This document shows positions 11,174-33,622 of a stretch of 35,125 nucleotides of DNA, piece after piece (the first letter of the stretch is position 1; each line of letters starts with the position of its first letter). The DNA is from a virus. The stretch is from positions 1 through 35,125 of IMG/VR virus record IMGVR_UViG_3300026142_000152; one strand, given 5' to 3'. Both the position numbers and the translations under genes were made by a program. The notes under the pieces are model-generated. The model did no database searches and was not told where the DNA came from. It was given only the letters and a program-made list of their open reading frames with translations.

Positions 11174-11582
11174 ACCGATTGCTGACAAGCAGTTTACCGA
11201 TTCGAGAGATATTGTTAAACTAATCCGCGATACCTTTGCCGATCTCGAAGATCAACTCAATGCTCGCGCACAAGTCTATGCATCCACTGATGGTCGGATT
11301 CCTGCTGGTCTTAATCGGAATGATATCCTCATCATTTCGTTTAAGGGCAAGATCACAATTCAAATCAAAAACAAGAAAGGATTCGATATACTAACAGCCG
11401 ACATGCTCGGCGGACTGACCAAAGGAAATACCAGATTCCTTGCGTTCCAGAAATCAAACGTAGCTCCAGCACTCGCCAACTTCCCGCTCGTAAACGACTG
11501 GGGCTTCTACCAACATACAGGTACTGCCACATATCTCTGCTTCAATAATAACAGCGTTCTCAAGAAAGTAGCACTCACATGA
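11157..11582 (+). CDS. hypothetical virion protein, 141 aa
   Basis: An N-terminal helix (RDIVKLIRDTFADLEDQLNAR) is followed by a beta-rich C-terminal domain (DILIISFKGKITIQIKNK, GTATYLCFNN). Small proteins with a short helical stalk and beta domain at this position may be tail fibres or tail accessory proteins. I recognise no family. It starts inside the end of the nozzle-like gene (17-nt overlap) and ends with an ATGA coupling to the next gene. Confidence 0.6.
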   Translation: MAITTRPIADKQFTDSRDIVKLIRDTFADLEDQLNARAQVYASTDGRIPAGLNRNDILIISFKGKITIQIKNKKGFDILTADMLGGLTKGNTRFLAFQKSNVAPALANFPLVNDWGFYQHTGTATYLCFNNNSVLKKVALT

Positions 11583-12538
11583 TTAGTCCAACTAACCCCA
11601 CAGAAGTAACCGATAGCGGTACATGGAAATGGATGAACATGCCCGGAGGAACCGGGATGGCTCAGTTCTATCCGAATCCACCGACAGCCCCAGCACCTAC
11701 GACTACAACCCCTGTAATGGGTAATATGGTAGCTGGTAGCGGTTCAGCGAATAACACGATCAATCTGAATAATCAGACTTCGTCCTATTCCAGTTTCATG
11801 GCTCAGCCCGTGAAGCTTCCGCCACCTCCTGCACCGCCGGACTATTCCAATTTGCAAGCACTGCAAAACAAGGTGGAGCGGCAGAAGATGATTAAGCAGG
11901 CGATGTCGCAGTATGACGATCTCGAAGCTTCTACCAAAGCAATGGGAAGTCAAGCTGCGAACAACGCAGGCAATGTCTATGCCAATCGTTTGATTCAGCA
12001 GGGTGTCAATCCTGTTGCGTCAGGCGTTGTCGCGGCTCAAGCCAAACTGCCGGTTTACAATCAGCTTGCTGAGATCAACACTCAGAAGCAGACAACGAGA
12101 CTTGATGCCGTTAACAAGGCGGACTCACTCGCAGCTAACATCGCTTCCACCATGGCGAATATCCAGCTTGGCTACTCCAAGATGTTAGCGGATTACAATG
12201 CACAAGGTGCGGGCTATCAGCTGGATTACAGCAAGTTCAATGCTGGCCAAGCCCAACACGCCTATGAATACGGACAGAATCACGATCTGGATAAGCAGAA
12301 GCTTGCCGCACAGATCGCTGCCATGGGAGCTTCGGGCACCTCGGGAGTTGCTGGGGGTAAGGCTGGTGTACCAACCAATGGTAGTGCCTATCGTGGTACT
12401 TGGAGAGATGCCTATGCAGGGACAATGGCACTAGCACAAGAGAACCCGTTTCAGCAACTCAATCGCGCGAATCTTTCTGGGTATCTTTCCCGGAATGGGA
12501 TGTGGGATGATGCGCTTCCTAACTACGCTGTACTCTAA
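11579..12538 (+). CDS. internal virion (ejection) protein candidate, 319 aa
   Basis: The N-terminal ~90 residues are Pro/Thr/Asn-rich and disordered (PNPPTAPAPTTTTPVMGN, KLPPPPAPPDYS). A long Ala/Gln-rich helical region follows (SQAANNAGNVYANRLIQ, LAANIASTMANIQLGYSKM), then a Gly-rich tail. Ala-rich helical proteins in sets of three after the nozzle gene are typical podoviral internal core proteins injected with the DNA. An in-frame dispersed dyad (11850-11868) encodes NLQALQN. ATGA coupling sets the start. Confidence 0.5.
   Translation: MISPTNPTEVTDSGTWKWMNMPGGTGMAQFYPNPPTAPAPTTTTPVMGNMVAGSGSANNTINLNNQTSSYSSFMAQPVKLPPPPAPPDYSNLQALQNKVERQKMIKQAMSQYDDLEASTKAMGSQAANNAGNVYANRLIQQGVNPVASGVVAAQAKLPVYNQLAEINTQKQTTRLDAVNKADSLAANIASTMANIQLGYSKMLADYNAQGAGYQLDYSKFNAGQAQHAYEYGQNHDLDKQKLAAQIAAMGASGTSGVAGGKAGVPTNGSAYRGTWRDAYAGTMALAQENPFQQLNRANLSGYLSRNGMWDDALPNYAVL
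11850..11868. repeat. dispersed dyad copy (in gene)
   Basis: ATTTGCA-AGCAC-TGCAAAA; encodes NLQALQN. Confidence 0.87.
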
Positions 12539-19967: not shown

Positions 19968-20239
19968 GCTGGCTTCTTGGCGTTGTTGAAATCCATGGCG
20001 AGGAGGTGTGGCGGTAGCCCCTCGCTGAGGAAGGCGACGTAGATAGGCGAGCCAGTCTTCAATAACTCCAACTCCCCTTCAGTAGGGAGCCATGCAGTTA
20101 CGATGACAGGTGAACCTTCCAAGGATGAAGGACCATCAACGGTGCCGCGATAGCAATAGACGGTCGCTACTTGACTCTCGCTCATTCCGAGCGGAGGTCC
20201 GAATCGCATGTTGGCTTCTGGAAATTGTGTGGGGATCAT
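19964..20239 (-). CDS. hypothetical protein, up to 91 aa
   Basis: A small beta-rich protein (VATVYCYRGTVDGPS, GSPVIVTAWLPTEGELELLKTG, IYVAFLSEGLPPHLLAMDF). The long form starts at 20239 and overlaps the polymerase tail by 104 nt. An internal ATG at 20185 (MSESQVATVYC) would cut the overlap to 50 nt and is an equally good start. ATGA coupling with the next tiny gene supports the end. Second-motif copy 20072-20082 encodes PTEGE. No family recognised. Confidence 0.6.
   Translation of the reverse strand: MIPTQFPEANMRFGPPLGMSESQVATVYCYRGTVDGPSSLEGSPVIVTAWLPTEGELELLKTGSPIYVAFLSEGLPPHLLAMDFNNAKKPA
20072..20082 (+). repeat. second motif copy
   Basis: CTCCCCTTCAG; - strand encodes PTEGE. Confidence 0.8.
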
Positions 20240-22244
20240 GGTGGATATAGCCTAAGCCTTCACACGCAAGGCACTTGGTTTTGTCGACGTGACCAGTGGC
20301 TTTGCAGCATGGGCATGGGTCGCCTTTGATAATACGGAGGATGGATTCATGGTCATTGATGTCTACTTCGATTGCATTCTTGGCTGTTGTTTTGCTGAGG
20401 TAAAGCTTTGCTCTGAGGGGGATGTTGTCGAACTTCTCCGAGAACCTCTCGGTCATGTTGAAGTTGAGCTTTTGCAGTAGATGCAAAATGTTGTCACTTC
20501 CGAGTCGGAGATCGATACGACCTCCATTTTCATCGTGGGTGGTGGTGCACATGACCCCGCTCTTAACGGCACGACGGCGCAGAGGTGTGGGCATTTTCTT
20601 ATCCATACGTCTAAGTGTCTCCCAGTTTGCACGAATCTGGGCTTTCGGTAGAGAACCCGTTCCACATCCCTGAATAAGATAAGCAACCACCTTGTATGCC
20701 TGACTCGGAGATCCTGCGTATCGTTTCCCAAAGACGTCAGTAACGTACCCAGTGGAGCGTAGATCGGAAGCCACTCGATTTTGCAACTCTCGAATGGCGG
20801 GGCAAGCGGAATGCACATTGCCGAAGACTTCCTCACCCACGTCACGGTTAAGCCCAAAAAGCTTACAGAACTTAGTGACTCCCATTCCAAAGTTAATTGC
20901 GAGCTTTCCGGTTTTGGTTTCTTTATAAACAGTCCACGTCGGAATTCGGGGAGATAGCATATTCTCCTTATCATCCCAGTAATCCTTGTCCTTATCTTCT
21001 CCATATATGATATTGCAAAGCCAGACATACTCGTTCCAGTCGTAGTTTCCCTCGTATGATGCCCGTCTCGCCGTGTCGTTGGATTCATAAATGTGGACGA
21101 TGTTCTCTACCTGCGTCGAGTCGAACCACCAGCCAAGCTGCCCTTCAGGAACAATCTGTACTGCTTTCGCTCTGTCATTGGGGTTCTGGAAATTAATCTT
21201 GTGGAATGATTGAGACGTCGTACGCCTTGTACGCGCTGAAGACCATGAGTATTGGATCGGGATCCAGTTCGGACCCATGTCTTCATGATATGTTTCGTCG
21301 TCCGTAGCGTTAAGATAGTTCTCCAGATATTTGATGGAACCGTTAGCATCACGAATGTTGAAGGCACACTCAGCCAAGGGATTTTCATCCTTAAGTGACA
21401 CCAGCACACTCTTCTTAACACTGAATTCCCCCGAAGCTGTAAGCTCCAATTCGAGGTTGTCGAACTCAGTGAAATAGCGAGCGAGTTGTTTGGAAGAATT
21501 AGGATTCTGCACCTCACCGTGGGTAAGCTCAAGAGCGCGTTTCGTTTCATTTTGAACAGTCTTTTGCAGTCGTTGCAAACCTCGCCACGTCTCAGGGATA
21601 TCGATGTAGATTCCCCCTTCAGTGTGCATCTCAAGGCTTGGCTCGTAGATCAGAGCATCGTTTAAGTAGGCTTCCCAGAATTCGTTTCTAATGACAACAT
21701 CCCATGACATCCTAAAGAGTTGTTCCAGCTGTACAATATCGTGGGCGTTATAACGGTGGAGAAGTTTCGTTGGAACCTCGTGCATCGCACACCCATGTGC
21801 AGACATGTACTCGAACAGTTCCATCTCCGGGAAATGCGGGTCCCCGAGGAAGTAAAAAGCGGCAAACTTCTGGGAGAAAGCCGGTAGTGTCGGACTGATG
21901 GTTTTAAGGATTTGATAAACGTCGTGAGCGTTCTGAGGATGCACGAAGTATCCATGTCGGTAGCCGACAGTTCGATCAAAGTTGACGCCATTGAAGTCTA
22001 CTTTAATGATGTCTGGCGCAGCAAGTTTACGTTTGAACTCCTTACGACGCGATGGCCGATCGACCATCTCAACCACTCCACTGAATCCATATTGTACTGC
22101 GCATGACTTGATCGAGGCATAGGGCGCATACTGATGATCGGTTTCCCAGTCGTAGAATAGAATCTTATCTTCATCGATTTCGCTGATTGGTTTTCGAATT
22201 AACTTACTCGGGGTCGTCAGGATATTCTGTAATTTTCGGATCAT
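20136..22244 (-). CDS. family A DNA polymerase with 3'-5' exonuclease and C-terminal zinc module, 702 aa
   Basis: Exonuclease domain: D32/E34 in YDWETD, FNGVNFD near residue 90, and YNAHD at 165-169. Polymerase motif A is FDSTQVE with D375, motif B is GKLAINFGMG (446-455), motif C is HDE (570-572). These are the catalytic elements of replicative phage family A polymerases. Unusually, residues 644-665 read CPCCKATG...CLACEGLG, a DnaJ-like two-half zinc module after the palm. The last ~35 codons overlap another ORF and read Ser/Arg-rich, so the functional end may be earlier. Dyads at 20470-20488 (LHLLQK) and 21562-21580 (LQRLQK) lie inside. Confidence 0.88.
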   Translation of the reverse strand: MIRKLQNILTTPSKLIRKPISEIDEDKILFYDWETDHQYAPYASIKSCAVQYGFSGVVEMVDRPSRRKEFKRKLAAPDIIKVDFNGVNFDRTVGYRHGYFVHPQNAHDVYQILKTISPTLPAFSQKFAAFYFLGDPHFPEMELFEYMSAHGCAMHEVPTKLLHRYNAHDIVQLEQLFRMSWDVVIRNEFWEAYLNDALIYEPSLEMHTEGGIYIDIPETWRGLQRLQKTVQNETKRALELTHGEVQNPNSSKQLARYFTEFDNLELELTASGEFSVKKSVLVSLKDENPLAECAFNIRDANGSIKYLENYLNATDDETYHEDMGPNWIPIQYSWSSARTRRTTSQSFHKINFQNPNDRAKAVQIVPEGQLGWWFDSTQVENIVHIYESNDTARRASYEGNYDWNEYVWLCNIIYGEDKDKDYWDDKENMLSPRIPTWTVYKETKTGKLAINFGMGVTKFCKLFGLNRDVGEEVFGNVHSACPAIRELQNRVASDLRSTGYVTDVFGKRYAGSPSQAYKVVAYLIQGCGTGSLPKAQIRANWETLRRMDKKMPTPLRRRAVKSGVMCTTTHDENGGRIDLRLGSDNILHLLQKLNFNMTERFSEKFDNIPLRAKLYLSKTTAKNAIEVDINDHESILRIIKGDPCPCCKATGHVDKTKCLACEGLGYIHHDPHTISRSQHAIRTSARNERESSSDRLLLSRHR
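20413..20423 (-). repeat. second motif copy, one mismatch
   Basis: + strand reads CTGAGGGGGAT; in the polymerase gene. Confidence 0.6.
20470..20488. repeat. dispersed dyad copy (in polymerase gene), perfect arms
   Basis: TTTTGCA-GTAGA-TGCAAAA; - strand encodes LHLLQK. Confidence 0.93.
21562..21580. repeat. dispersed dyad copy (in polymerase gene)
   Basis: TTTTGCA-GTCGT-TGCAAAC; - strand encodes LQRLQK. Confidence 0.87.
21611..21622 (+). repeat. second motif copy, 12-nt variant
   Basis: TTCCCCCTTCAG; - strand encodes HTEGG in the polymerase. Confidence 0.65.
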
Positions 22245-22557: not shown

Positions 22558-23193
22558 CTAGAGGAGGTTCTTCCACTTGAACTTGAAGGGCTTCGGGTTA
22601 ATTTTGGGGTGAAGACCGGCGTCTTCTGCAGCTTTATAAAGCACTCGAAACACTCGCGGGGTATCTGAGGGGGAGACGAGTAGATAGTTAATTGAGTAAC
22701 CCACCCAGACTTCAGGGACAACCTCACGAACGATGGGTTCCCAATTAGCAAACTTCCGTCCTTCGGAATTCTTAAGCTCAGATCGGCCCGTGAAAGCCTC
22801 CATCGATACTTTGCCCAGAGCAACGAGAGCCTTCGGACGAGTGCGAAGAATTGCGTTGAATCTGTATGCAGCGCACTCTTCAATACATCCGGCGCGTTCT
22901 GCTTTAGTGCCCGGTAAAGATTTTGCGGGGTAGCATCGTAGCGTGTACTCGAATCCAACATCTTCTGGAGCCACTGACATGCGCGATAGCAGTTCGAATA
23001 GGAGTTCTTTAACGTCGAGCTTATAGGGGGCATGGGCGTGGTCTGCGAAGTAGTCGGGATAGTCTGTGAAGATAACAAGCTTTCGTGGACCAAGCGAGTT
23101 GAGACCTCTGAGTCCAATAGCTTTTGGATGTGCATATTGATGCAGTTTGCAACGCTTGCAAGATGCGTTTACTTGGGTCGGGGTCTTAATCAT
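22558..23193 (-). CDS. uracil-DNA glycosylase superfamily (family 4-like) Fe-S protein, 211 aa
   Basis: Cysteines C12 and C15 (SCKRCKL), then two more around residues 86 and 102-106 (TLRCYPAKSLPG, AGCIEECAAY), match the four-Cys iron-sulfur layout of family 4/SPO1-type UDG proteins. LVIFTDYPDYF stands where the active-site strand GEAPG normally is, and LVSPSDTPR stands where the catalytic His-Pro-Ser motif is expected, with Ser in place of His. It may therefore bind DNA or assist the polymerase rather than excise uracil. The neighbouring family A polymerase fits SPO1-like context. ATGA coupling fixes the start. Confidence 0.65.
   Translation of the reverse strand: MIKTPTQVNASCKRCKLHQYAHPKAIGLRGLNSLGPRKLVIFTDYPDYFADHAHAPYKLDVKELLFELLSRMSVAPEDVGFEYTLRCYPAKSLPGTKAERAGCIEECAAYRFNAILRTRPKALVALGKVSMEAFTGRSELKNSEGRKFANWEPIVREVVPEVWVGYSINYLLVSPSDTPRVFRVLYKAAEDAGLHPKINPKPFKFKWKNLL
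22665..22675 (-). repeat. second motif copy
   Basis: + strand reads CTGAGGGGGAG; in the UDG-like gene (SPSDT), at the unusual catalytic-motif position. Confidence 0.8.
23145..23163. repeat. dispersed dyad copy (in UDG-like gene)
   Basis: GTTTGCA-ACGCT-TGCAAGA; the only copy read in the third frame, giving the CKRC Fe-S pair. Confidence 0.8.
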
Positions 23194-23387: not shown

Positions 23388-23559
23388 ATGGTATTTCTGT
23401 TATCCAAGGGAAGTTGCACACCTGTTCGCGTGCCCGCATTGCAGCGACTTCACTTGGGAATGTGGTTGCGTGTTTAATATCGTTGACGTAGGTCCACTTC
23501 TTTCCACCCTGAAGGGCAACCAACTCAGGTCCGCCAACATGGTAGAGAAGCCAACTCAT
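23314..23559 (-). CDS. hypothetical protein, 81 aa
   Basis: Begins SWLLYHVGGPELVALQGGKKW and continues HATTFPSEVAAMRAREQV, a compact mixed alpha/beta pattern. Its ATG overlaps the stop of the primase-helicase gene (ATGA). The last ~24 residues (Arg/Pro-rich) lie in the overlap with the next gene and may be a non-conserved tail. No family recognised. Confidence 0.6.
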   Translation of the reverse strand: MSWLLYHVGGPELVALQGGKKWTYVNDIKHATTFPSEVAAMRAREQVCNFPWITEIPYASYLRANESRPSRHRETPTPYEF

Positions 23560-26450
23560 TTAGATAGACGTTCAATGAAGTCTTCCAAGAAACGCTTGCC
23601 CGCGGGGGTGATATCCCAGAGGTTCCCTTCACCCTTACGCAGTACACGTTCACGCATCATCACACCGATCAGTTGGTCAGCGTGCATTAGCGTCATGCCG
23701 GCAATGGCACACAGTTCATCACGCGAGAAGCGTGTGGAATGTACTAACGTTTCGAGTACCTTGGGAAGCGTCGATCGAGGAATCTTGTCCTTGAATCCTT
23801 TGCGGACAAGGACGACGTCTTTGACTCGTTCTCGATCATACATTTGAGAACTGTACTGACTGTATCCGAGTGATGGTTTCGTATATAGTAGATCGAGGAG
23901 TCTTCCTGCGGCCTTAACATGCTTGGAAGTAACGATGACTTTTCCCTTCGACTCGTCCCAAGCAAACTGAAGACAGGCAATGGCAGCCGCAATCCGACCC
24001 AGCTTATAGCGTCCACTTCCTCCTTTGAAAATAGGAATAGAGGAATGATAAATGGCAGACAACCTCTTAGTCTGCTCAAGGCATTCCTCATACGCCTTCT
24101 GTTCGAATTCAATCTGCTCGGGTGTGAGAGCCCATACAAAATGGATAAGTTTCTGAAACTGATCGGCACCAATGTATTCGTCTTTTGCACTCGATGCAAA
24201 CTGCGCTGAGTTGATGACATTGATTGAGACTTCATTGTCTGTTAAGGTGGTGATAAGGTCGAACCGTGCGATATCTTCGCCGTGTCCAATAAGTTCCTGA
24301 ACCGCATGAATTCCGAATAAGTAGCTGGATAGAGGCTTCTTGATGCTTCGAGGATTTGACAGACAGATAAGTCGAGTTCGACTATTAGTCTCGGCAGAGA
24401 TTCCACCTTTATCAAGGCGTGCCACACCCGATGACCGCACGTCCGACATGTTCGAAATTTCCTCAACCGATAGCCCACTAAGTTCCTCGATGACAACCAG
24501 TTGTTTATCGCAGAGGGGGATTCGTCCCCAGCGTAGCATAAGCTGACCACTACCCATTTTGATTGCTCCGCCAACCAGACCGACGAATGTGCAGTTCTCT
24601 CCGGACATGAAGACCCCGCACTTGAAGAGAGCCTTAAGAGCCAGCGATACCTTAGACTTACCCGTCTCAGTGTCTCCAACTGTAAGAGTATTAATCCAAC
24701 CACGCTGGCATTTGTCAGTGTGTGGTTCGTTTGGAAACCACCATCCGATCGGACTACTCCAAGTAAGTAGAGCCATGAGAGTCCAATCCAGACGATTGTA
24801 AATATGAGTAAACCGCTCTGTAACTTGAGTGGCGAGAGATTCCATCTTGTCCCAAACACTCTCGCCATCACTCGGGCGGAAGGCGTATAGGTCGGCAATG
24901 TTTTCGGGAGAGGCATCAAATCTCTCGATAGATTTGGAGAGTGGGGTGATCTTGGTGATGATGCCGATTGTCTCCTGAGATCTGATCTCGGAGGTGGGGA
25001 TGATTTCGAAGTAGTATGGGACATTGGATTCGATCTTCTTACCGAAGTAGAAACAACGTTGGATAACGTAAGTGGCATCCTGATCGATGGATGCCGTTGG
25101 GATTATCTCAACTTCGGTAGCTGTTAAGTATGCGATGGGTAATACTTCGGCGTTGTTATTGCCGATGATCTTTTGCACTGACTGCAAAATCTGCGTGTCC
25201 GATGATCGGACATAACGAAGCAACTCCCGACTCATTGGGAGTTCATACTCGAAGTCAGGACGTGACTTGATCTTTACCTTAAACTTCCATGGAATCGAGA
25301 AGGTGTTGGGAGACTTGGCTGCTACGATACCCTGTGTCTTGATCCGCTTGTTCAGCAGGTCAGACCGTGAGGAGATGTGCGCCACCTCCATCATCTTCTT
25401 CGTGGCAAAGGGAGGTAGCTCCGGGTAGTCCACTTCCCCTTCAGAGCATGTCACCTCTCCTTCGTCATCCACAGGAGGATGAGGAGTGCTGCCATTACTC
25501 CCAGACTTTGGGACAGACTTGGGTCCATATTTTTTGGCTAATCGCCCAAGCTCAGAACCATTGCGCTTCTCCTTGAGCCTAAAGTCTGCGTAGTCTTTCC
25601 AGTCCTTCCGCTTGGTTCTGAAGGGGAGGAGTATGTTAGTGACAGACTTTGCAGCTTTTTCAATAAGCGGAACCAACCTACGACGGGCTGCTTCGCCACC
25701 CTCATCGACATCGAGTACCGTGAAGACTCGACGGTTAGCCACCACTGAATCCCATTCGGGATCCCATTTGTCTTCGCCGGCAGTAGAGGCAAAGGCATTA
25801 TATCCGTCTTGAAGGGCAAGCATAGCCTCTTTCTCGCTAGCCATAATAAACACCGGATAACCATCTGTGAAAGAAGTAGTTGCTGGCCAAGGAAACAGAT
25901 CAGCACCACCAAACCCCGGAAGGTTGTGTATCTTGGCATTGTCCTTCCCATTCCTCTGGGACGGAAGTCGATAGAATCTGACATTAACAGCTTGCTTGAA
26001 CTGGTCATAGACAGGAATCGTGATTCGATTGGAAAGAGTATCGAGCCCAAGTTGAAAGCGATCAATGCTTTCGGACGTGAGCCCCATCTCCTTTTTGATC
26101 TTCAGAATAAACGCAGTGTTTTCCCTAAGATTCTGGCGATAGATTGCGAGGAGTTTTGCATCAACGACTGGTCGCACGAATTCGCGATAAATTCTCCGAG
26201 CTGCGATGGGTTCTTTTTCTCCAGTTCGCGTTGCCTCAAAGTGGACAATGTTTCCAATTCGTTTTGCACATCGGGTGGAATGGCACCTTGCTCCACCGTT
26301 CCGAAGTCCGATGGCAAGATTTCCGTTGGCGCCGTCTTCGTGAAATGGACATCGGACATTGCTCTTTGCTCTGGGGTTCCATTCGGGGAATCGCTTGGCA
26401 TAATATTCGTCAGGGTTTACTTTTGAAATTACGTATTCTTTTAGAGTCAT
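23556..26450 (-). CDS. TOPRIM primase fused to MCM-like AAA+ helicase, 964 aa
   Basis: N-terminal zinc site: CPFH at 34-37 and CHSTRC at 56-61. TOPRIM-like segment: FIMASEKEAM (E206/E208) and FTVLDVDEGG (D247, D249). An OB-like linker domain lies about 365-510 (LLNKRIKTQGIVAAKS). AAA+ core: Walker A GDTETGKS (592-599), Walker B LVVIEE (651-656), sensor 1 ICLSNP (695-700), and EDIARFDLITTL (725-736), which resembles the MCM SRFDL motif. A winged-helix-like tail covers 870-960. It would prime and unwind at the phage fork. Phage primase-helicases usually carry RecA-type helicase domains, so an MCM-like partner is unusual. Dyads 24183-24201 and 25171-25189 lie inside. Confidence 0.8.
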   Translation of the reverse strand: MTLKEYVISKVNPDEYYAKRFPEWNPRAKSNVRCPFHEDGANGNLAIGLRNGGARCHSTRCAKRIGNIVHFEATRTGEKEPIAARRIYREFVRPVVDAKLLAIYRQNLRENTAFILKIKKEMGLTSESIDRFQLGLDTLSNRITIPVYDQFKQAVNVRFYRLPSQRNGKDNAKIHNLPGFGGADLFPWPATTSFTDGYPVFIMASEKEAMLALQDGYNAFASTAGEDKWDPEWDSVVANRRVFTVLDVDEGGEAARRRLVPLIEKAAKSVTNILLPFRTKRKDWKDYADFRLKEKRNGSELGRLAKKYGPKSVPKSGSNGSTPHPPVDDEGEVTCSEGEVDYPELPPFATKKMMEVAHISSRSDLLNKRIKTQGIVAAKSPNTFSIPWKFKVKIKSRPDFEYELPMSRELLRYVRSSDTQILQSVQKIIGNNNAEVLPIAYLTATEVEIIPTASIDQDATYVIQRCFYFGKKIESNVPYYFEIIPTSEIRSQETIGIITKITPLSKSIERFDASPENIADLYAFRPSDGESVWDKMESLATQVTERFTHIYNRLDWTLMALLTWSSPIGWWFPNEPHTDKCQRGWINTLTVGDTETGKSKVSLALKALFKCGVFMSGENCTFVGLVGGAIKMGSGQLMLRWGRIPLCDKQLVVIEELSGLSVEEISNMSDVRSSGVARLDKGGISAETNSRTRLICLSNPRSIKKPLSSYLFGIHAVQELIGHGEDIARFDLITTLTDNEVSINVINSAQFASSAKDEYIGADQFQKLIHFVWALTPEQIEFEQKAYEECLEQTKRLSAIYHSSIPIFKGGSGRYKLGRIAAAIACLQFAWDESKGKVIVTSKHVKAAGRLLDLLYTKPSLGYSQYSSQMYDRERVKDVVLVRKGFKDKIPRSTLPKVLETLVHSTRFSRDELCAIAGMTLMHADQLIGVMMRERVLRKGEGNLWDITPAGKRFLEDFIERLSK
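24183..24201. repeat. dispersed dyad copy (in primase-helicase gene)
   Basis: TTTTGCA-CTCGA-TGCAAAC; - strand encodes FASSAK. Confidence 0.87.
25171..25189. repeat. dispersed dyad copy (in primase-helicase gene), perfect arms
   Basis: TTTTGCA-CTGAC-TGCAAAA; - strand encodes LQSVQK. Confidence 0.93.
25434..25444 (+). repeat. second motif copy, one mismatch
   Basis: TTCCCCTTCAG; - strand encodes CSEGE in the primase-helicase linker. Confidence 0.65.
25618..25628 (-). repeat. second motif copy
   Basis: + strand reads CTGAAGGGGAG; - strand encodes LLPFR. Confidence 0.8.
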
Positions 26451-26531: not shown

Positions 26532-27641
26532 CTAGTCGTTCTCTTCGAGATCTTCGACCGGGACCTTGACGACATCTTCGTCAGCATCCTCGATCGTGGC
26601 GGTGTCGCCCTTGATCTTCTTGATCGTGCCGGTCTGCTCGTCACCCTCATCGTCGGTCCACTTCACTTCGTCACCGACGGCGGGGGTCCATTTCTTCGCC
26701 TTGCCCTTCTTCGCTGGCTTCTCGTCTTCCTCCTCCTCCTCCTCGGACGATTCGGATTCGGCATCCGCATCTTCCTTGGTCAGATCCGACAGGTCCTTGG
26801 TGACAGCCTTGCCGTCATCATCGCCGTCGTCATCGACAGGTTGAACCTTTGCCGTCTCCTTCTTCTCGTTGACCGAGATGACGCGAGCCCGGACCGTGTT
26901 GTCATCGTCATCCTCGAAGGTAACGAAGTCATCCTCGGCGATCGGCTCAGATTCGGCATCGTCTCCGTCTCCGGAGTCATCGCCATCGGCATCCTCATCG
27001 ACCTTGGTCAGGTCTTCGAGATCAACCTTCACCGGCTTGCCATCGTCATCACCATCGTCATCGATGGGTTGGACAGTGGCAACACCCTTGGCTTCGTTGA
27101 TCTTCGTGACCTTACCCTTCACGTCATCACCATCGTTGTCCCACGTGACCGTATCGCCTTCCTCGATATCCGAGGAAGCGGCATCGTCTTCTTCGCCGTC
27201 ATCATCGGCGCCTTTGACTTCGCCGACCAGACCTTGGATGTAGATGTTGACGTAAGCGCCGTTCTCCTTGGCGTTCACGACCACCATCGGCTGCTCGTCG
27301 GAGATCTCCTTCAGAGTCTTCTTGAGCTTGGCTCCGGTGATCTTCTCGTAACCCAGCAGCGCCAGATCACGCATCAGATACGCAAGGCCCGGCCCTTTGC
27401 CGCCTTTGACATCACGCAGCTTGTACAGCTGCCGGCCCTTGAGCCCTTCGATGTCGCCTTCGAGTCCCTCGACTTCGAGGATCGCGGCTTCACCTTTCTT
27501 CTTGTCTTCCTTGAGTTCGATCTTGTTGATCCGAACTTCGTGGGTGCCATTGGGCAGGGTGTTCGTTGCTTCCGACGGGTCCGTATCATCCCAAAGATCA
27601 GCGAGGGAGGGGCGGCCAGCGGGTTTATTGGTTTTAGCCAT
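26532..27641 (-). CDS. DUF669-like ssDNA-binding candidate with three acidic SH3-like repeats, 369 aa
   Basis: Residues about 25-140 follow the DUF669 pattern: LPNGTHEVRINKIELKEDKK, GRQLYKLRDV, AYLMRDLALLGYEK, VVVNAKENGAYVNIYIQG. In many phages such a protein neighbours a Sak4-type ATPase, as here, and is thought to bind DNA. Three repeats follow (about 159-214, 234-290, 319-366), each of the form GDxVTWxDD...GKVxKINEKxxxATVQP...VxLEDLTK, resembling KOW/Tudor/SH3 barrels in very acidic linkers. The start at 27641 (MAKTNK) is preferred; the frame stays open to 27773 across a dyad, so a longer form cannot be excluded. Confidence 0.65.
   Translation of the reverse strand: MAKTNKPAGRPSLADLWDDTDPSEATNTLPNGTHEVRINKIELKEDKKKGEAAILEVEGLEGDIEGLKGRQLYKLRDVKGGKGPGLAYLMRDLALLGYEKITGAKLKKTLKEISDEQPMVVVNAKENGAYVNIYIQGLVGEVKGADDDGEEDDAASSDIEEGDTVTWDNDGDDVKGKVTKINEAKGVATVQPIDDDGDDDGKPVKVDLEDLTKVDEDADGDDSGDGDDAESEPIAEDDFVTFEDDDDNTVRARVISVNEKKETAKVQPVDDDGDDDGKAVTKDLSDLTKEDADAESESSEEEEEEDEKPAKKGKAKKWTPAVGDEVKWTDDEGDEQTGTIKKIKGDTATIEDADEDVVKVPVEDLEEND
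26541..27170 (-). repeat. three acidic SH3-like repeat units
   Basis: The DUF669-like gene repeats a ~55-75-codon unit three times. The first two also share long stretches at DNA level (GACGATGGTGATGACGATGG-type codons). Confidence 0.7.
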
Positions 27642-27701
27642 ACTATGTATCTTCTGTTTTGTTTTGTTTGTTACGTAACGTTGCCGTCTTTCCGGCTGTC
27701 G

Positions 27702-27720
27702 TTTTGCACCGGGTGCAAAA
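27702..27720. repeat. dispersed dyad copy (gap), perfect arms
   Basis: TTTTGCA-CCGGG-TGCAAAA, about 60 nt upstream of the DUF669-like ATG. Confidence 0.95.
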
Positions 27721-27854
27721 GTGTCTTCATCGCACAAGGAATGTGCAACTGCGATATCCATGAAATCGCCCATAAAAGTGGTGCTGCTCAGGGATGGTGC
27801 CGCCCATTCTGCGGCCTGTGGAGAGTTCTTGCCACATATGAAACCCAGTAGCTA

Positions 27855-27911: not shown

Positions 27912-28745
27912 TTACCTCTTGTAAATCTTTTTGTATTCCCGTTCAGCCACAAGGACAGCCTTGGGGTCCACGAAGAACTTGGTGAACTGTTGCCACGGTT
28001 TGTCCGGGCTAACAATGAATCGTTCCGGGAGCGGGGCATCGGAACGGTTGCCTGCCAAGGTATCGAGATCACCTTCGCAGACGAGAATGCGATCACGAAG
28101 CTTGTTCGGGGGACGCTTCTTGCCAAGCTCGCCATGGATCATCACGTCAGCTTGGGAGATACAGAAGCGAGCTACACCTGAAGGCATGGTGGATTCCTTG
28201 CGAGCCGTTTCGCCAGAGGTGAAGCGGGCAATCTCGATCTTCGTGTGGGTGACGAAGCCGACGCCACGCCCAGTCTTGAGAATGGCGAGGATGTATTTCC
28301 GCATCGGACTGTTGAGTGTTACGTCCCAGCCTTTGCCGAAATCACCAGCATCTGAAGGGTGAGCCACTGCCAGCTTCTCACAATGGTAGTCCATGCACAT
28401 CTTCGCTGCCATGTCCACCGTGTCCATGATGACGAAGTTATATTTGTCGGTAGCTTCCAGCACTTCAAGTGCCTGCTCTGCCGTCATGCGTGGTACACCT
28501 TCCTCGTCTTTCTCGATCTCGAACGAGCCGCGGCGTTGGTCCCATTTGACGATTTCGATCTTGTGTCCTCGACGGAATCGATGCCCAGTTTCGAATGCGA
28601 GGAGGAGCGCATCGGGGTTGGACATGAAGAACTTCGTCTTGCCCCACTTAGGTGGTGCCACGAGTAAAAAGACAAGCAGATGTGGTGTGATCTTCCACGA
28701 TGTTGCTTTGTCTGGCAGGAGTGCATTGGCTTGTTTTCTAGTCAT
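27912..28745 (-). CDS. Sak4-like RecA-fold ATPase, 277 aa
   Basis: Walker A is VAPPKWGKTKF (29-39) and Walker B is FVIMDTVD (104-111). The LLLAFETG and later VGFVTHTKIEI stretches fit the compact RecA-core ATPase (AAA_24/Sak4) of phage recombination systems, which aids strand annealing or exchange with an SSB partner. The DUF669-like gene lies directly downstream. Length is usual. It starts right after the stop of the preceding gene (TAA|ATG). No Shine-Dalgarno sequence is present. Confidence 0.7.
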   Translation of the reverse strand: MTRKQANALLPDKATSWKITPHLLVFLLVAPPKWGKTKFFMSNPDALLLAFETGHRFRRGHKIEIVKWDQRRGSFEIEKDEEGVPRMTAEQALEVLEATDKYNFVIMDTVDMAAKMCMDYHCEKLAVAHPSDAGDFGKGWDVTLNSPMRKYILAILKTGRGVGFVTHTKIEIARFTSGETARKESTMPSGVARFCISQADVMIHGELGKKRPPNKLRDRILVCEGDLDTLAGNRSDAPLPERFIVSPDKPWQQFTKFFVDPKAVLVAEREYKKIYKR

Positions 28746-28934: not shown

Positions 28935-29124
28935 AGTCTAAGTTCTTGTTGCGGGCTAACCATTCGGGGATTTCAATGATGCAGATTTCGTCTCGGCTTT
29001 TACAGATGTAGTCTATCAACGAACGAGGAATCCATTCCTCTGAGCCATCAGGTCTTTCGAAAAGTATCGCAGCTTCAGTGCGATGCAATTCCTTCAGCCC
29101 TTTGACTGATACGTTTTCACTCAT
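28927..29124 (-). CDS. hypothetical protein, 65 aa
   Basis: Small mixed protein (KELHRTEAAILFERPDGSEE, WIPRSLIDYICKSRDEICII) resembling short phage proteins with a 'sense signal, W-I-P-R' pattern, unknown function. The start at 29124 (MSENVS) overlaps the nuclease stop by 8 nt. An upstream in-frame start at 29220 would lie deep within the nuclease gene and was rejected. Confidence 0.65.
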   Translation of the reverse strand: MSENVSVKGLKELHRTEAAILFERPDGSEEWIPRSLIDYICKSRDEICIIEIPEWLARNKNLDYD

Positions 29125-30124
29125 TAGCTTCCTCCACAAGTTCGCGGTGTTTAACTTCTCGGCGGTAGAATGCACGCTTCTCGATATCGAGTCCGTTCTT
29201 ACAAGCGGTGATGAATTCACATGGCTGCCCGTACTTGCGGCAGGTGTCCGTATTCTTATTACGAACGATCAAAGTCTTAACCTCGTCGGAGATCTTGGGA
29301 TTGAATAGCATCTTCACCCTCTCCAACTTGGGACGCAGGATGGTAGCTTCGAATCTCTCCATATCCCCTTCCTTGAGCAGCTGAGGATCACGATAGAAAT
29401 ACTTCTCGGGCTTCTGCATCATGTCGATTTGCACTCGCTGCAAATAGGCATCGACAGGTTCGGTGTCGCCCCACTTAAGCTGTGGCTTCTTCACCGCATT
29501 GACCATGAAGCCGCGGGGTCGCTCCTTCTTGAACTTGGGATCACGCATGGCCAGCCACATGTAGAACATGAACTGTAAGCGGAATTCCCAGCCGAGTGCC
29601 GTGTCCTTGTCGAGTCTGCCCGTGGTCTTGTGGTCCCAAATGATGAGACGCTTGTACGCCTTTTGGATAGCCCGCACATCCAACTTCCCCTTCAGTCTAA
29701 TGCCTTCGAACTCGAAGTCGATGATGTCTTCCGTGCCCACGATCTCCCAATGCTTGGGGTCATCCTTGTAGAAGCTGGCATAGATCTCCATCTGAAGCTG
29801 GCCCAGCCGAGTGTAGAGTTCACGATCACGCAGCACTCTCTGCGATGAGAAGCGAAGATCCTTCTCTGCGATGCCGTCCAGTGTAGGTGCCCACGACCAT
29901 CGCTTACCCTTGGTCCGATAGAATTCTTCCAGTGAGTTGTGCATCCACGATCCATACGTGGTAGCCCACGAGAATTGTCCACGCCGTGAGAGCATGAGGT
30001 TGTACCCAAGATACCATTTCTCGGGACAGTTATCCCAAGTTTGCATCTCCGATTGAGTGATGCCCTCCCCGATTAGCTCGGGGTTGATTTCAAATTCAAG
30101 TTCTGGTAGGTGGAGTTTTCTCAT
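29117..30124 (-). CDS. PD-(D/E)XK nuclease with Cas4/AddB-like Fe-S cysteines, 335 aa
   Basis: ITQSEMQTWDNCPEKWYLGY carries C33, and GSWMHNSLEEF carries H62. The nuclease core is GKLDVR (D149) and IIWDHKTT (D164-x-K166), followed by the RecB-type helix FRLQFMFYMW (Q184, Y188). At the end are three cysteines, C295, C302 and C308. One Cys before and three after the nuclease core is the 4Fe-4S arrangement of AddB/Cas4-like exonucleases. It likely resects DNA ends for the nearby recombinase. ATGA coupling fixes the start at 30124. No cas1/cas2 is nearby. An internal dyad (29427-29445) encodes YLQRVQI. Confidence 0.78.
   Translation of the reverse strand: MRKLHLPELEFEINPELIGEGITQSEMQTWDNCPEKWYLGYNLMLSRRGQFSWATTYGSWMHNSLEEFYRTKGKRWSWAPTLDGIAEKDLRFSSQRVLRDRELYTRLGQLQMEIYASFYKDDPKHWEIVGTEDIIDFEFEGIRLKGKLDVRAIQKAYKRLIIWDHKTTGRLDKDTALGWEFRLQFMFYMWLAMRDPKFKKERPRGFMVNAVKKPQLKWGDTEPVDAYLQRVQIDMMQKPEKYFYRDPQLLKEGDMERFEATILRPKLERVKMLFNPKISDEVKTLIVRNKNTDTCRKYGQPCEFITACKNGLDIEKRAFYRREVKHRELVEEANE
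29427..29445. repeat. dispersed dyad copy (in nuclease gene)
   Basis: ATTTGCA-CTCGC-TGCAAAT; - strand encodes LQRVQI. Confidence 0.82.
29686..29696 (+). repeat. second motif copy, one mismatch
   Basis: TTCCCCTTCAG; - strand encodes RLKGK beside the nuclease Asp. Confidence 0.65.
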
Positions 30125-30234
30125 CGGAGTGTAATCTTGCTGATGCCTTGGACAATGTATGCAGTGCGTGCCCATGATGCAGGCACAATGAAACCGAACG
30201 TATAACCTCGGATCACATCTGGATCACACTGCAT
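30121..30234 (-). CDS. tiny protein, 37 aa
   Basis: Peptide MQCDPDVIRGYTFGFIVPAS continuing with WARTAYIVQGISKITLR. It fills the gap between its neighbours: its ATG overlaps the end of the upstream gene by 11 nt and its TGA overlaps the nuclease ATG (ATGA). The coupling is the main support. It is mildly hydrophobic; the function is unknown. Confidence 0.5.
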   Translation of the reverse strand: MQCDPDVIRGYTFGFIVPASWARTAYIVQGISKITLR

Positions 30235-30398: not shown

Positions 30399-30656
30399 TC
30401 ATTGGTAGGTGTCGGCCCGATAATTCCGATAGTCGTGGGGTTCGCGGAGCATGAGATCTCCGAAGTCGGCTCGGACGAATCGTTTGCCTGTGTTGTCATC
30501 TTCGTAAACTTGGTTGGTTATCGCAGACGCGATGGCTGGAAGGAACGAGTTAAAGACTGAGTTGAGCGACGACGCATTGGCTGCGCACCATTCCTTAATG
30601 GAAGCGACATCACCTTCGAAGTCATCGTGGATTCTAATGGTAATTTTTTCAGCCAT
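30399..30656 (-). CDS. hypothetical protein, 85 aa
   Basis: Begins AEKITIRIHDDFEGDVASIK then helical KEWCAANASSLNSVFNSF, ending acidic/basic (RADFGDLMLREPHDY). The opening looks like a small domain that binds nucleic acid or protein, but no family is recognised. It overlaps the helicase end by 139 nt in another frame. The protein-like character of this frame in the overlap is better than that of the helicase tail. A dyad begins 2 nt after its stop. Confidence 0.6.
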   Translation of the reverse strand: MAEKITIRIHDDFEGDVASIKEWCAANASSLNSVFNSFLPAIASAITNQVYEDDNTGKRFVRADFGDLMLREPHDYRNYRADTYQ

Positions 30657-32008
30657 GCGTTTACGGATTTAGTTATGAACTCCTCTTCCTTTTTCTTGGA
30701 AGAGAAAACTCTCTGATACACTAACGAGTCCAGACTTTGTTTTGTCTGTAGATAATAGTAGAAGCAGGTCTGATGTTTCGAATCGTGTCGATCCGTTCGC
30801 CCCATTGACTGTTGCATGTCCAGCCATTTGAAAGAGTGGCTGAAGTAAAGGGCATACGCACAATGCCGGAAGTGGTTCACTGAACTCCCAGACCCAACGG
30901 TGGCTACGGCGACCTGTCCGTTCCGATACCAACCCGCGATATCGAAAGGTTTTCCTCCGTGCATACCATAAGCTTTCACGGACGGCATCTTCTTTTGCAA
31001 CGACTGCAAGATCAAGTTCACCGAGTGTTGGAAGGCACACCAGATCACGACCTTCTCTCCGCAAAGAAGCAGTTCCGACACAGCCGAAAGAAGATAGTCC
31101 ATCTTCGCTGACGATATACGGGTAGTCGTTTTCTCCAAGTGAACAAAACCGTCTGATACTTGTTGGCATTTGATGATGATGCTGGGTGTGTTCTTAAACT
31201 CAACCACTCTCCCCTTCAGTTCTATCTCAAAGAAGTTCCGAAGGCTATCGAAGGCGGCAAGTTGGTCACGTGTGGGTTCAATGGATCTGACGATGGATAC
31301 TGCTCGACGTTGATTGTTAGTCGGGAAATAGATGGAGGAAACTGGAACGATTCGAGTTGAGACAAGTTCGACAGCGCCTCTTGCAGCAACCCACTTAGCA
31401 GCTTGGCTTTCTCGGTTGGGGGCAATTTGGAACTTAAACATGTATTGACTTCGGAAGTCCGTGAGAGTTCGAGCGAGCACAGCGTGACGGTTGATGGCAT
31501 AAAGTTGTCCGAATACATCTTCTAAGTTACGAGCAGTCATCACGCTACCAGACAGGATGGCAGCACGACCGACACCTTTGGAAATTCGATTGGCTGCTTT
31601 GCAATGCTTAGTCTGTGAGTTCTTATAGAGGAACCCTTCATCGTAGCAGATCGCTTGGATCATACTGCCGGACTCGGCAATAGCATGGGATAGTTTATCC
31701 AGCATCCCATGTGAGATTAGATAGACCACTGGCTTCGTAGTCTTGATGTCATACAGATCATCCTCACACTCCACTGTCCATGTACGCCATGGCAATTCAC
31801 AACGCTTCATCTCATCTTCCCAATCTGCAAACGCTTCACGACGACATACAACGATGAAACGTGGTAGAACTTTGCAGTCTTTTGCAACGAGTGCAAACCA
31901 TTTGAAGGTGATGCGCGTCTTACCTGTACCGACACGCCACCAGACTGCACCTCCATTGCGGCGATGCAGTCTGTACGCGGTCTTATTCTGGCGGGGCGTG
32001 AGATCCAT
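30518..32008 (-). CDS. SF2 (SNF2/DEAD-like) helicase, 496 aa
   Basis: LTPRQNKTAYRLHRRNGGAV is the Q-motif-like start, VGTGKTR (26-32) motif I, YDEGF (122-126) motif II in place of DEAH, and ILSGSV (151-156) motif III. The second half has VVIWCAFQHSV, VAVATVGSGSSVNHF and DMQQSMGRTDRHD, motif VI of SNF2/Rad54-type translocases. It probably remodels DNA or protein-DNA complexes in replication or recombination. Start at 32008 is chosen because upstream codons overlap the zinc-ribbon gene. The last ~46 codons lie over another ORF and read Arg/Ser-rich. Dyads 30993-31011 (LQSLQK) and 31880-31898 (FALVAK) lie inside. Confidence 0.82.
   Translation of the reverse strand: MDLTPRQNKTAYRLHRRNGGAVWWRVGTGKTRITFKWFALVAKDCKVLPRFIVVCRREAFADWEDEMKRCELPWRTWTVECEDDLYDIKTTKPVVYLISHGMLDKLSHAIAESGSMIQAICYDEGFLYKNSQTKHCKAANRISKGVGRAAILSGSVMTARNLEDVFGQLYAINRHAVLARTLTDFRSQYMFKFQIAPNRESQAAKWVAARGAVELVSTRIVPVSSIYFPTNNQRRAVSIVRSIEPTRDQLAAFDSLRNFFEIELKGRVVEFKNTPSIIIKCQQVSDGFVHLEKTTTRISSAKMDYLLSAVSELLLCGEKVVIWCAFQHSVNLILQSLQKKMPSVKAYGMHGGKPFDIAGWYRNGQVAVATVGSGSSVNHFRHCAYALYFSHSFKWLDMQQSMGRTDRHDSKHQTCFYYYLQTKQSLDSLVYQRVFSSKKKEEEFITKSVNAWLKKLPLESTMTSKVMSLPLRNGAQPMRRRSTQSLTRSFQPSRLR
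30993..31011. repeat. dispersed dyad copy (in helicase gene)
   Basis: TTTTGCA-ACGAC-TGCAAGA; - strand encodes LQSLQK. Confidence 0.82.
31209..31219 (+). repeat. second motif copy
   Basis: CTCCCCTTCAG; - strand encodes ELKGR in the helicase. Confidence 0.8.
31880..31898. repeat. dispersed dyad copy (in helicase gene)
   Basis: TTTTGCA-ACGAG-TGCAAAC; - strand encodes FALVAK. Confidence 0.87.
31941..31973. repeat. 9-bp perfect inverted repeat inside the helicase gene
   Basis: CAGACTGCA (31941-31949) and TGCAGTCTG (31965-31973), 15-nt spacer, near the 5' end of the helicase gene. Isolated and may be chance. Confidence 0.4.
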
Positions 32009-32058
32009 TCCTAACTGTGGACATCCATTGTATAGGAATGTACGACATTTGTCAAGAG

Positions 32059-32265
32059 CTAAAACGGCAGGAAATGTCCATTGAACAGCGCCCAGATCAC
32101 CACCAGCCATACACACAGCAGCAGGACAAAGCAGATGATTGCATTCGTCGGAGACTGAGGGGGAGTGGATAGGACTTTGCCACAGTTGAGACAGAGCAGA
32201 TTATCTCTCCCGTCATCATACATCTGCTTGAGACAACGCGGACATTTGTTTTCAGTGATCTTCAT
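32059..32265 (-). CDS. zinc-ribbon membrane protein, 68 aa
   Basis: N-terminal CPRC and CLNC pairs (residues about 8-11 and 25-28) make a zinc ribbon. Residues about 43-62 (AIICFVLLLCVWLVVIWALF) form one membrane span. It is coupled to the upstream gene by ATGA. Zinc-ribbon plus TM proteins are common in phages with unknown roles. A copy of the second motif (32155-32165) encodes TPPQSP. Confidence 0.65.
   Translation of the reverse strand: MKITENKCPRCLKQMYDDGRDNLLCLNCGKVLSTPPQSPTNAIICFVLLLCVWLVVIWALFNGHFLPF
32155..32165 (-). repeat. second motif copy
   Basis: + strand reads CTGAGGGGGAG; - strand encodes TPPQS. Confidence 0.8.
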
Positions 32266-32774
32266 AAGGTGTAGCTAATGGGTTGGGGTTCGTCGAACTC
32301 TACGATTTCTTGTTGGGATTCTTCGGAGCAGAAATACTCCTGAAGTCTAATAGCTCGGCGCAACTTCGCTTTGACTTTCTCTTCGTCATAGAAGTTGCAC
32401 TCGATCTGCATTGTACCTATCCACACATGGCGTGCAGCTTGGTATGTTCCACCCGGATGCACTTGCAGATACAATTTGCAGGCATGGGGTCCAGTGGTGG
32501 GGCACATAAAGTTCTGTTCCACCACCACATAATATCTTGCACCGGGTGCAAATCTCAGACCGTAGTAGATGGCTACATACATGTCCTGAGCGAATGGATC
32601 ACCCGGCATCACGAACGGTGCGGGGTTCACCAAGAAGGAGATCGGGCGCATTGCCCGCCACTCTCCTTTCTCCTTATAGCGGTGTACTTTGTAGAACAGC
32701 CGAAGTAATTGTCCAAGCGATCGGACGGGATACGTCTTGGAGACTTCCCACTCCTGAACGTATTTCTGTTTCAT
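32262..32774 (-). CDS. hypothetical protein, 170 aa
   Basis: Aromatic-rich and mixed alpha/beta (SLGQLLRLFYKVHRYKEKGE, AQDMYVAIYYGLRFAPGARY), with a HACKLYLQVHPGG stretch and an acidic C-terminus (SEESQQEIVEFDEPQ). No catalytic motif recognised. ATGA overlaps on both sides bind it to the AAA+ and zinc-ribbon genes. An internal dyad (32535-32553) encodes FAPGAR. Confidence 0.65.
   Translation of the reverse strand: MKQKYVQEWEVSKTYPVRSLGQLLRLFYKVHRYKEKGEWRAMRPISFLVNPAPFVMPGDPFAQDMYVAIYYGLRFAPGARYYVVVEQNFMCPTTGPHACKLYLQVHPGGTYQAARHVWIGTMQIECNFYDEEKVKAKLRRAIRLQEYFCSEESQQEIVEFDEPQPISYTL
32535..32553. repeat. dispersed dyad copy (in gene)
   Basis: TCTTGCA-CCGGG-TGCAAAT; - strand encodes FAPGAR. 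Confidence 0.82.
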
Positions 32775-33580
32775 TCAGCAACGATGTGCTTTCCATTCTC
32801 ACGCTCACAGAACTGAATGAATAGACCGAGCGACGGTCTTACGTTTCGCCGGATGGCATTTGAGATTGCAGCTACGATGACAGTCTCGATCTGTCTGCCA
32901 TTCAACTCGTACTTGGCAAGCTTCTTCAACTCCCCTTCAGAAGGTTGGAAAGGTAGCTTCTTCGGAATCTTGTGACGCCACAGCTTCACTCGCATCGGGA
33001 AGTCTGGCTCGCCCACATGCACAATGGCGAGGAACCTATTCGATAGGGCGGGGTCGAGATTGTGGACGTGATTGGTGGCACAGATGACGAGTCCCGAGTA
33101 CACGTTCATCTCCATCATGAGAGTCTCGATAGTCCCAAGCTGCCAAGTCTTTCCATCGGGTGAGATCTTCTCACGGTTGCCAAGCAAGTGATCGCACTCA
33201 TCAATGAAGATGGTTGCGTTGTGCCTCTTCTTCGCATCGGCGAAGAACTCCACCACTGCACGCTCAGTTGCACCGGGCTCACCTCCACCAATCTGCGCGG
33301 CACTGAGTTGCTTGAATCCTTTCTTGATCCTCTCTGCCATCCACTTGGCAATGGTAGTCTTGCCAGTTCCGGATGGTCCTTCCAAAAGAATAGCGGACCC
33401 TTGCTCGCGGATATTATTCATACCCCACTGGATCCACTTGTCTCTGTTCTGATACTGCGATATCGCATCGAGTACATCTGACTCGACGCCATCTGACATA
33501 ACGGGTTTGTTCATGGTAGGTTTAGATTTGACTCTAGGTGTAATGATGAAGTCATCAGTTTCGTGTTGGGAATGATTCAT
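32771..33580 (-). CDS. AAA+ ATPase, 269 aa
   Basis: Walker A EGPSGTGKTT (67-76), Walker B TIFIDECDHLL (123-133), sensor 1 ICATN (166-170), and an Arg-finger candidate SNRF (R182). The layout is that of small AAA+ proteins such as clamp-loader-like, FtsH/Vps4-like or phage-encoded unfoldases; which one cannot be told. It may load a helicase or remodel proteins during infection. The start at 33580 overlaps the end of the terminator hairpin U-tract upstream. Second-motif copy 32930-32940 encodes PSEGE. Confidence 0.75.
   Translation of the reverse strand: MNHSQHETDDFIITPRVKSKPTMNKPVMSDGVESDVLDAISQYQNRDKWIQWGMNNIREQGSAILLEGPSGTGKTTIAKWMAERIKKGFKQLSAAQIGGGEPGATERAVVEFFADAKKRHNATIFIDECDHLLGNREKISPDGKTWQLGTIETLMMEMNVYSGLVICATNHVHNLDPALSNRFLAIVHVGEPDFPMRVKLWRHKIPKKLPFQPSEGELKKLAKYELNGRQIETVIVAAISNAIRRNVRPSLGLFIQFCERENGKHIVAE
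32930..32940 (+). repeat. second motif copy
   Basis: CTCCCCTTCAG; - strand encodes PSEGE in the AAA+ protein. Confidence 0.8.
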
Positions 33581-33615
33581 AAAAATTGCTGCTGAAGGAA
33601 TTACCTCCAGCAGCA
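33581..33615 (-). terminator. intrinsic terminator overlapping the AAA+ start
   Basis: TGCTGCTG (33587-33594) pairs with CAGCAGCA (33608-33615); after one A:C mismatch, AGG pairs with CCT, loop AATTA. On the - strand the hairpin runs into TTTTT and then the ATG at 33580. It fits rho-independent termination after the coiled-coil gene, with the U-tract touching the next start codon. Confidence 0.75.
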
Positions 33616-33622
33616 TACCTAG

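Follow-up and report, generated by a model that had tools for sequence, protein, structure and literature searches.

The 35,125-nucleotide stretch of viral DNA analysed here (referred to as the window; IMG/VR record IMGVR_UViG_3300026142_000152) carries on its minus strand a 964-codon open reading frame (ORF) at 23556-26450, as found by an ORF check of the window. Its product joins a DnaG-type primase to an MCM helicase comprising an oligonucleotide/oligosaccharide-binding (OB) tier, an AAA+ motor and a winged helix, and this fusion is real and widespread. The protein is quite probably the replicative primase-helicase of the phage, uniting in one chain a hexameric 3'-5' MCM ring and an N-terminal primase. 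The pairing of these two halves was the central claim of the original prediction, and it is borne out by sequence profiles, by two confident models with structural matches and by conservation across 67 relatives.

Domain architecture of the fusion protein

The structure of the whole protein was predicted with the alignment of the 67 relatives as input (mean predicted local distance difference test score, pLDDT, of 89.8). The gene is divided as follows.

23556-26450, minus strand: primase-helicase ORF of 964 amino acids with CHC2 zinc ribbon, TOPRIM primase core, linker, MCM N-tier OB, MCM AAA+ and winged helix (ORF, relatives, model)
26268-26351, minus strand: ligands C34, H37, C56 and C61 of the CHC2-type zinc ribbon, residues 34-61 (conservation among relatives)
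25521-26171, minus strand: DnaG-type RNA polymerase core, residues 94-310, with TOPRIM at about 197-292 (A204, E206, E208, D247, D249, D286, D289; VIA, profile, residue patterns)
25401-25520, minus strand: flexible linker, residues 311-350 (pLDDT below 50 at 311-328 and 331-350)
24927-25397, minus strand: probable MCM N-tier-like OB domain, residues 352-508 (VIA alignment to SsoMCM 6mii, collinear profile)
23841-24926, minus strand: MCM AAA+ motor, residues 509-870 (Pfam MCM, phmmer, fold and profile alignments)
24654-24677, minus strand: Walker A, GDTETGKS, residues 592-599 (K598 in 67/67 relatives)
24525-24596, minus strand: helix-2-insert hairpin region, residues 619-642 (predicted strands 627-631 and 637-641, aligned with archaeal MCM)
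24483-24500, minus strand: Walker B, residues 651-656 (E656 in 67/67)
24384-24425, minus strand: presensor-1 hairpin, residues 676-689 (predicted strands 676-681 and 684-689; K681 in 53/67)
24354-24356, minus strand: sensor 1 asparagine N699 (67/67)
24255-24278, minus strand: arginine-finger motif EDIARFDL, residues 725-732 (E725, D726 and R729 in 67/67)
23559-23822, minus strand: C-terminal winged helix, residues 877-964 (predicted elements at 879-963; the archaeal MCM profile alignment reaches the region)

The zinc site, one of several elements that had been read from the sequence, is conserved among the relatives aligned: C34 and C56 are present in all 67, H37 in 65 and C61 in 50. The Zn_ribbon_DnaG profile matched 35 of 43 relatives and not the window protein itself, and the profile match to Aquifex DnaG (2au3) spans the zinc ribbon. 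Toprim_2 matched 38 of the 43. The TOPRIM acids D247 and D286 are invariant (67/67), D249 is found in 65 relatives and D289 in 61, and D247 together with D249 forms the TOPRIM DxD. The family profile of residues 1-310 matches Aquifex DnaG with E 4.2e-28, other DnaGs as well, and T7 gp4 with E about 1e-9. A separate model of the N-terminal half (pLDDT 93.7) was aligned by VIA with 2au3 (Z 21.7, 2.3 Å over 202 residues) and with T7 gp4 (Z 18.0). As judged from these profiles and the model, residues 1-310 are of the DnaG-type primase fold.

The C-terminal part matches Pfam MCM with E 9.4e-13 (residues 580-739), and all listed PDB sequence matches are MCM, the best being SsoMCM (phmmer E 2.7e-8). 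Foldseek of the full model gave MCM chains for all 50 listed PDB matches (best E 9.8e-24); the fold lists consisted of MCM for the full model and of primases and TOPRIM proteins for the N-terminal half, and the comparison is limited to these folds. In VIA, residues 339-871 of the model align with SsoMCM 6mii over 452 residues (Z 31.4, rmsd (root-mean-square deviation) 6.0), whereas the alignments beginning only at about residue 507-513 cover 312-322 residues; the N-tier thus adds to the match. The family profile is collinear with archaeal and haloviral MCMs over 532 columns (Prob 99.1, E 1.2e-18), and the alignment with archaeal MCM passes through the N-tier, the AAA+ part and the winged helix. 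The comparison with MCM families suggested in the original prediction therefore came out in favor of MCM both by Pfam and by profile, and its proposed structural test, MCM against superfamily 3 (SF3) or another AAA+ clade lacking presensor-1 hairpins, gave hairpins at 627-641 and 676-689. The Walker, sensor 1 and ARFDL motifs and the winged-helix tail that it listed are found as given above.

An OB-like middle had been suspected as well, and the model indeed contains strands at residues 370-503 that align with the MCM N-tier. The N-tier OB is assigned from structure and collinearity; Pfam MCM_OB is not among the Pfam matches of the window protein. The four-cysteine site common to the N-tier of most relatives is absent from the window protein and two others (L011 and L012). 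Such a zinc site is not universal in the N-tier, some cellular MCMs being devoid of it.

Counter-evidence and the TOPRIM active site

Several observations weigh against this picture. The window protein is divergent, and its own Toprim_2 match (E 0.055) falls under the Pfam cut-off. Compared with archaeal MCM by profile, the N-tier OB region on its own does not reach significance. Pfam MCM also matches control bacterial genomes without a replicative MCM; it is not diagnostic alone and because of these matches was dropped as sole criterion. The window record is part of a longer contig; its positions 13559-35112 are 100% identical, over the stretches compared, to IMG/VR contig 3300005616_000009 (50,619 bases). 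Finally, the phage could use the DnaB or DnaG of its host. The remaining points of this kind concern the TOPRIM active site and are described below. As a side observation, the longer contig carries a terminase-large-subunit-like ORF (L111:12312-14372; sequence read by eye), which agrees with a tailed phage.

The behavior of Pfam MCM on bacterial genomes, together with an identity to MCM of only 15-20% in the structural alignments, would be compatible with an AAA+ part that only resembles MCM, its true place being in an SF3-like or some other helix-2-insert AAA+ clade. This is highly improbable in view of the fold matches, which are all MCM as far as listed and extend past the AAA+ core into the N-tier, of the collinear profile and of the prediction of both hairpin insertions. 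SF3 families are absent from the Pfam matches of the window protein, and the listed fold matches of the full model were all taken up by MCM, which makes the comparison with SF3 an indirect one.

In the residue-level alignment, position 204 corresponds to the glutamate of the DnaG "EGYMD" motif; the window protein has Ala204 there, and the usual TOPRIM aspartate four residues further on is Glu208. The original prediction of TOPRIM acidic residues thus holds for E206, D247, D249, D286 and D289, and not for these two positions. Because the canonical glutamate is missing, the N-terminal half is described here as having a DnaG-type fold and not as an established primase. An invariant acid, E206, lies two residues past position 204. 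Residues 204-208 correspond to window positions 25827-25841.

Glutamate is found at position 204 in 53 of 74 relatives, and the window protein belongs to the 21 without it. The substitute is Ala in the window protein, Thr in its two nearest relatives and Gly in 13 others, and one clade of 13 sequences without E204 has in addition K208. On the tree of the helicase part, the loss of E204 took two independent events at the least and four at the most. These recurrent losses, as well as A204 and E208 in the window protein itself, would fit a Twinkle-like state, in which the TOPRIM half of this lineage no longer primes and serves DNA binding or loading while host DnaG makes the primers. Such a state is conceivable and somewhat doubtful: D247, D286 and E206 are invariant and D249 nearly so, all 21 sequences without E204 retain the C, H, C, C zinc pattern together with D247 and D286, and a second recognized primase was not found in the records without E204 that were checked (GenBank genomes W03 and W06 among them). 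The window protein, with its canonical TOPRIM glutamate replaced, may still be able to prime, as may the other members without E204.

Neighboring genes and the probable role at the fork

The primase-helicase gene is surrounded by genes of DNA replication and recombination, all on the same strand.

20136-22244, minus strand: family A DNA polymerase, likely the replicative partner (Pfam DNA_pol_A E 3.9e-8, just under the curated cut-off)
22558-23193, minus strand: uracil-DNA glycosylase superfamily protein, between polymerase and primase-helicase (E 2.2e-8)
26532-27773, minus strand: acidic protein of 413 amino acids with a part resembling single-stranded DNA-binding protein (SSB) at its N-terminus, directly upstream of the primase-helicase (phrog_6015 E 5.5e-4)
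27912-28745, minus strand: Sak4-like RecA-fold ATPase (phrog_124 E 1.1e-17, AAA_24 E 2.1e-18)
29117-30175, minus strand: PD-(D/E)XK exonuclease (PDDEXK_1 E 5.8e-21)
30518-32116, minus strand: superfamily 2 (SF2)-type helicase (phrog_62 E 5e-44)
32771-33616, minus strand: AAA ATPase, speculatively a helicase or clamp loader (Pfam AAA E 1.4e-21)

The gene order in Paenibacillus phage API480 is SSB, primase-helicase, PolA. The acidic protein at 26532-27773 contains repeated acidic segments and gives weak Tudor and HAS-barrel matches.

DnaB_C (PF03796) was found in none of 12 records, which include the window record and six GenBank entries labelled as complete genomes; the control gave a match in 14/14 genomes. 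In each of nine records MCM and Toprim_2 were matched once, both within the primase-helicase gene, and no second recognized primase was found in these nine, including W03 and W06, which are without E204. Primases of the archaeo-eukaryotic primase (AEP) superfamily (PF01896, PF09250) are absent from the window record, and none was found in the records checked for a second primase. The absence of a DnaB-type helicase and of a second recognized primase from the records searched makes the TOPRIM-MCM protein the likely replicative helicase-primase.

Its gene adjoins the recombination genes for Sak4, the exonuclease and the SF2 helicase, and many phages are known to borrow host DnaB. Both facts would suit a role in origin binding or restart: the MCM ring would open or reshape origin DNA, or would join Sak4 and the exonuclease in restarting recombination forks, and host DnaB would then take over. 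We regard this as unlikely: a recognized loader or adaptor for host DnaB was not identified (the AAA ATPase at 32771-33616 is a possible candidate), and the fused primase together with the absence of DnaB from all 12 records better fits a fork enzyme.

For the replicative primase-helicase, we infer, beyond the computed domains, catalytic residues and fold match, a hexamer with 3'-5' polarity, a choice of strand and priming. The C-terminal MCM part would assemble into a hexameric ring whose ATPase sites are composite, Walker A and B acting in cis and R729 in trans. The ring would surround the leading-strand template and move 3' to 5', and exclusion of the other strand would result in unwinding. 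The zinc ribbon and the TOPRIM core would be tethered by the flexible linker to the N-terminal OB tier, at which the excluded lagging strand may emerge, by analogy with the CMG helicase of eukaryotes. The primase would then lay RNA primers on the excluded strand for the phage polymerase. It may be, and this is put forward tentatively, that hundreds of phages possess in this way a one-chain analogue of CMG and primase that works without DnaB, and that in several lineages, including that of the window protein, E206 has taken over the role of the TOPRIM glutamate.

At textbook phage and bacterial forks, TOPRIM primases work with 5'-3' DnaB or SF4 (superfamily 4) rings, which travel along the very strand that receives the primers. 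A TOPRIM primase attached to an MCM ring of 3'-5' polarity would have to prime the strand excluded by the ring. The coupling of a primase to a leading-strand helicase thus becomes testable in one protein, in phages of B. subtilis and Microbacterium.

As a side observation, one primase-helicase family pairs with different replicases: actinobacterial phages (L004, L007) have DnaE-like polymerases, and Bacillota phages (L003, L006, L009) family A polymerases.

Relatives, lineage and comparison with known systems

A match was obtained in 54 phage records, in 45 of them over at least 80% of the protein. Full-length relatives are encoded by cultured phages of Bacillus, Weizmannia, Paenibacillus, Microbacterium and Arthrobacter. 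Recurrence of the full-length fusion in independent assemblies and in cultured phages means that it is neither due to chance nor an assembly join. The "distinct architecture" of the original prediction stands as regards the union of DnaG-type primase and MCM, with the addition that it is widespread in phages and not peculiar to this one. In IMG/VR, one scan with two short patterns found 309 stretches encoding relatives, and the IMG/VR relatives analysed are from the best 80 of these 309. In a few haloviral records the match is confined to the MCM core. A scan of contigs from cellular genomes gave one full-length relative, in a metagenome-assembled genome of Microbacteriaceae (L089), the remaining matches being to primase parts only. 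Most relatives therefore seem to reside in phages outside host chromosomes, as far as these non-exhaustive scans reach. The existing annotations of the cultured-phage relatives are primase or primase/helicase only; the present assignment would correct such labels as "DNA primase" or "DNA primase small subunit". Several of the relatives come from laboratory-grown phages, which makes the working of the protein directly testable.

An assembly or frameshift artefact had been considered as a source of the fusion and was ruled out by the cultured phages and the many assemblies. At the Microbacteriaceae locus (L089:7986-11639) a natural split is seen: zinc ribbon, TOPRIM and OB form one ORF and the MCM AAA+ part a separate one (10284-11639), with two small ORFs between them.

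In phage vB_BboS-125 and in plasmid p3 of B. velezensis LBY-1, a homologous MCM half is joined to an AEP-type primase (DNA_primase_S E 3.9e-10 in vB_BboS-125). In the tree, the phage TOPRIM-MCM and AEP-MCM proteins form one clade (100/100) apart from archaeal and haloviral MCMs, from which a stem of about 5 changes per site divides them. The shared clade suggests that the type of primase, TOPRIM or AEP, was exchanged on one phage MCM lineage. The fusion also reveals an MCM lineage in bacterial viruses that is distinct from archaeal MCM. A recent capture of an archaeal MCM, considered as an origin, is unsupported given this separation.

At an Agromyces locus (L090:7878-10010; read by eye) the region behind a related TOPRIM half resembles a RecA-type ATPase, which would be the reverse exchange, of the motor. 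Swaps seem to have gone both ways, affecting primases as well as motors. A scan of viral contigs with the AEP-MCM pair gave two loci, and at one of them the sequence is 100% identical to vB_BboS-125; these two loci are no measure of the relative abundance of AEP-MCM.

Fusions of a primase with MCM are already known. BcMCM, the AEP-MCM protein of a Bacillus cereus prophage, is reported to have 3'-5' helicase, primase and polymerase activity (PMC4538821), in agreement with the earlier statement that reported Bacillus phage MCMs carry an archaeal-type primase. MCM fused to AEP primases, including PrimQH proteins, has been described in bacterial mobile elements (Kazlauskas 2018, PMC5862659). The SCCmec proteins Cch and Cch2 are 3'-5' MCM-like helicases of bacterial mobile elements, for which a fused primase is not described (PMC7581432), unlike the protein studied here. 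The TOPRIM version appears to be undescribed within the literature searched: no description of TOPRIM-MCM in phages was found in the searchable literature, the 2016 Kazlauskas survey of viral replication proteins lying outside it, where an earlier mention is possible.

The AEP-MCM proteins (BcMCM; vB_BboS-125 gp45; LBY-1 p3) resemble the window protein in having a primase ahead of an MCM helicase in a bacterial mobile element, and differ in that the primase is AEP there and DnaG/TOPRIM here; BcMCM is likened by its description, the placement in the clade being made via vB_BboS-125. The same holds for PrimQH with MCM, in which a primase and an MCM-like helicase also meet in bacterial mobile elements, the primase being AEP and not TOPRIM. 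T7 gp4 and Twinkle share the TOPRIM core (in T7 gp4 also the zinc ribbon) fused to a hexameric helicase, but their motor is of the RecA-fold SF4/DnaB type, whereas an MCM AAA+ ring is predicted here. With archaeal and eukaryotic MCM the window protein has in common the OB N-tier, the AAA+ part with helix-2-insert and presensor-1 hairpins and the winged helix. In contrast to them, the alignment here begins at the OB (at residue 93 of 6mii), so that the N-terminal A subdomain, which lies before the OB, may be absent, and a DnaG-type primase precedes the MCM part.

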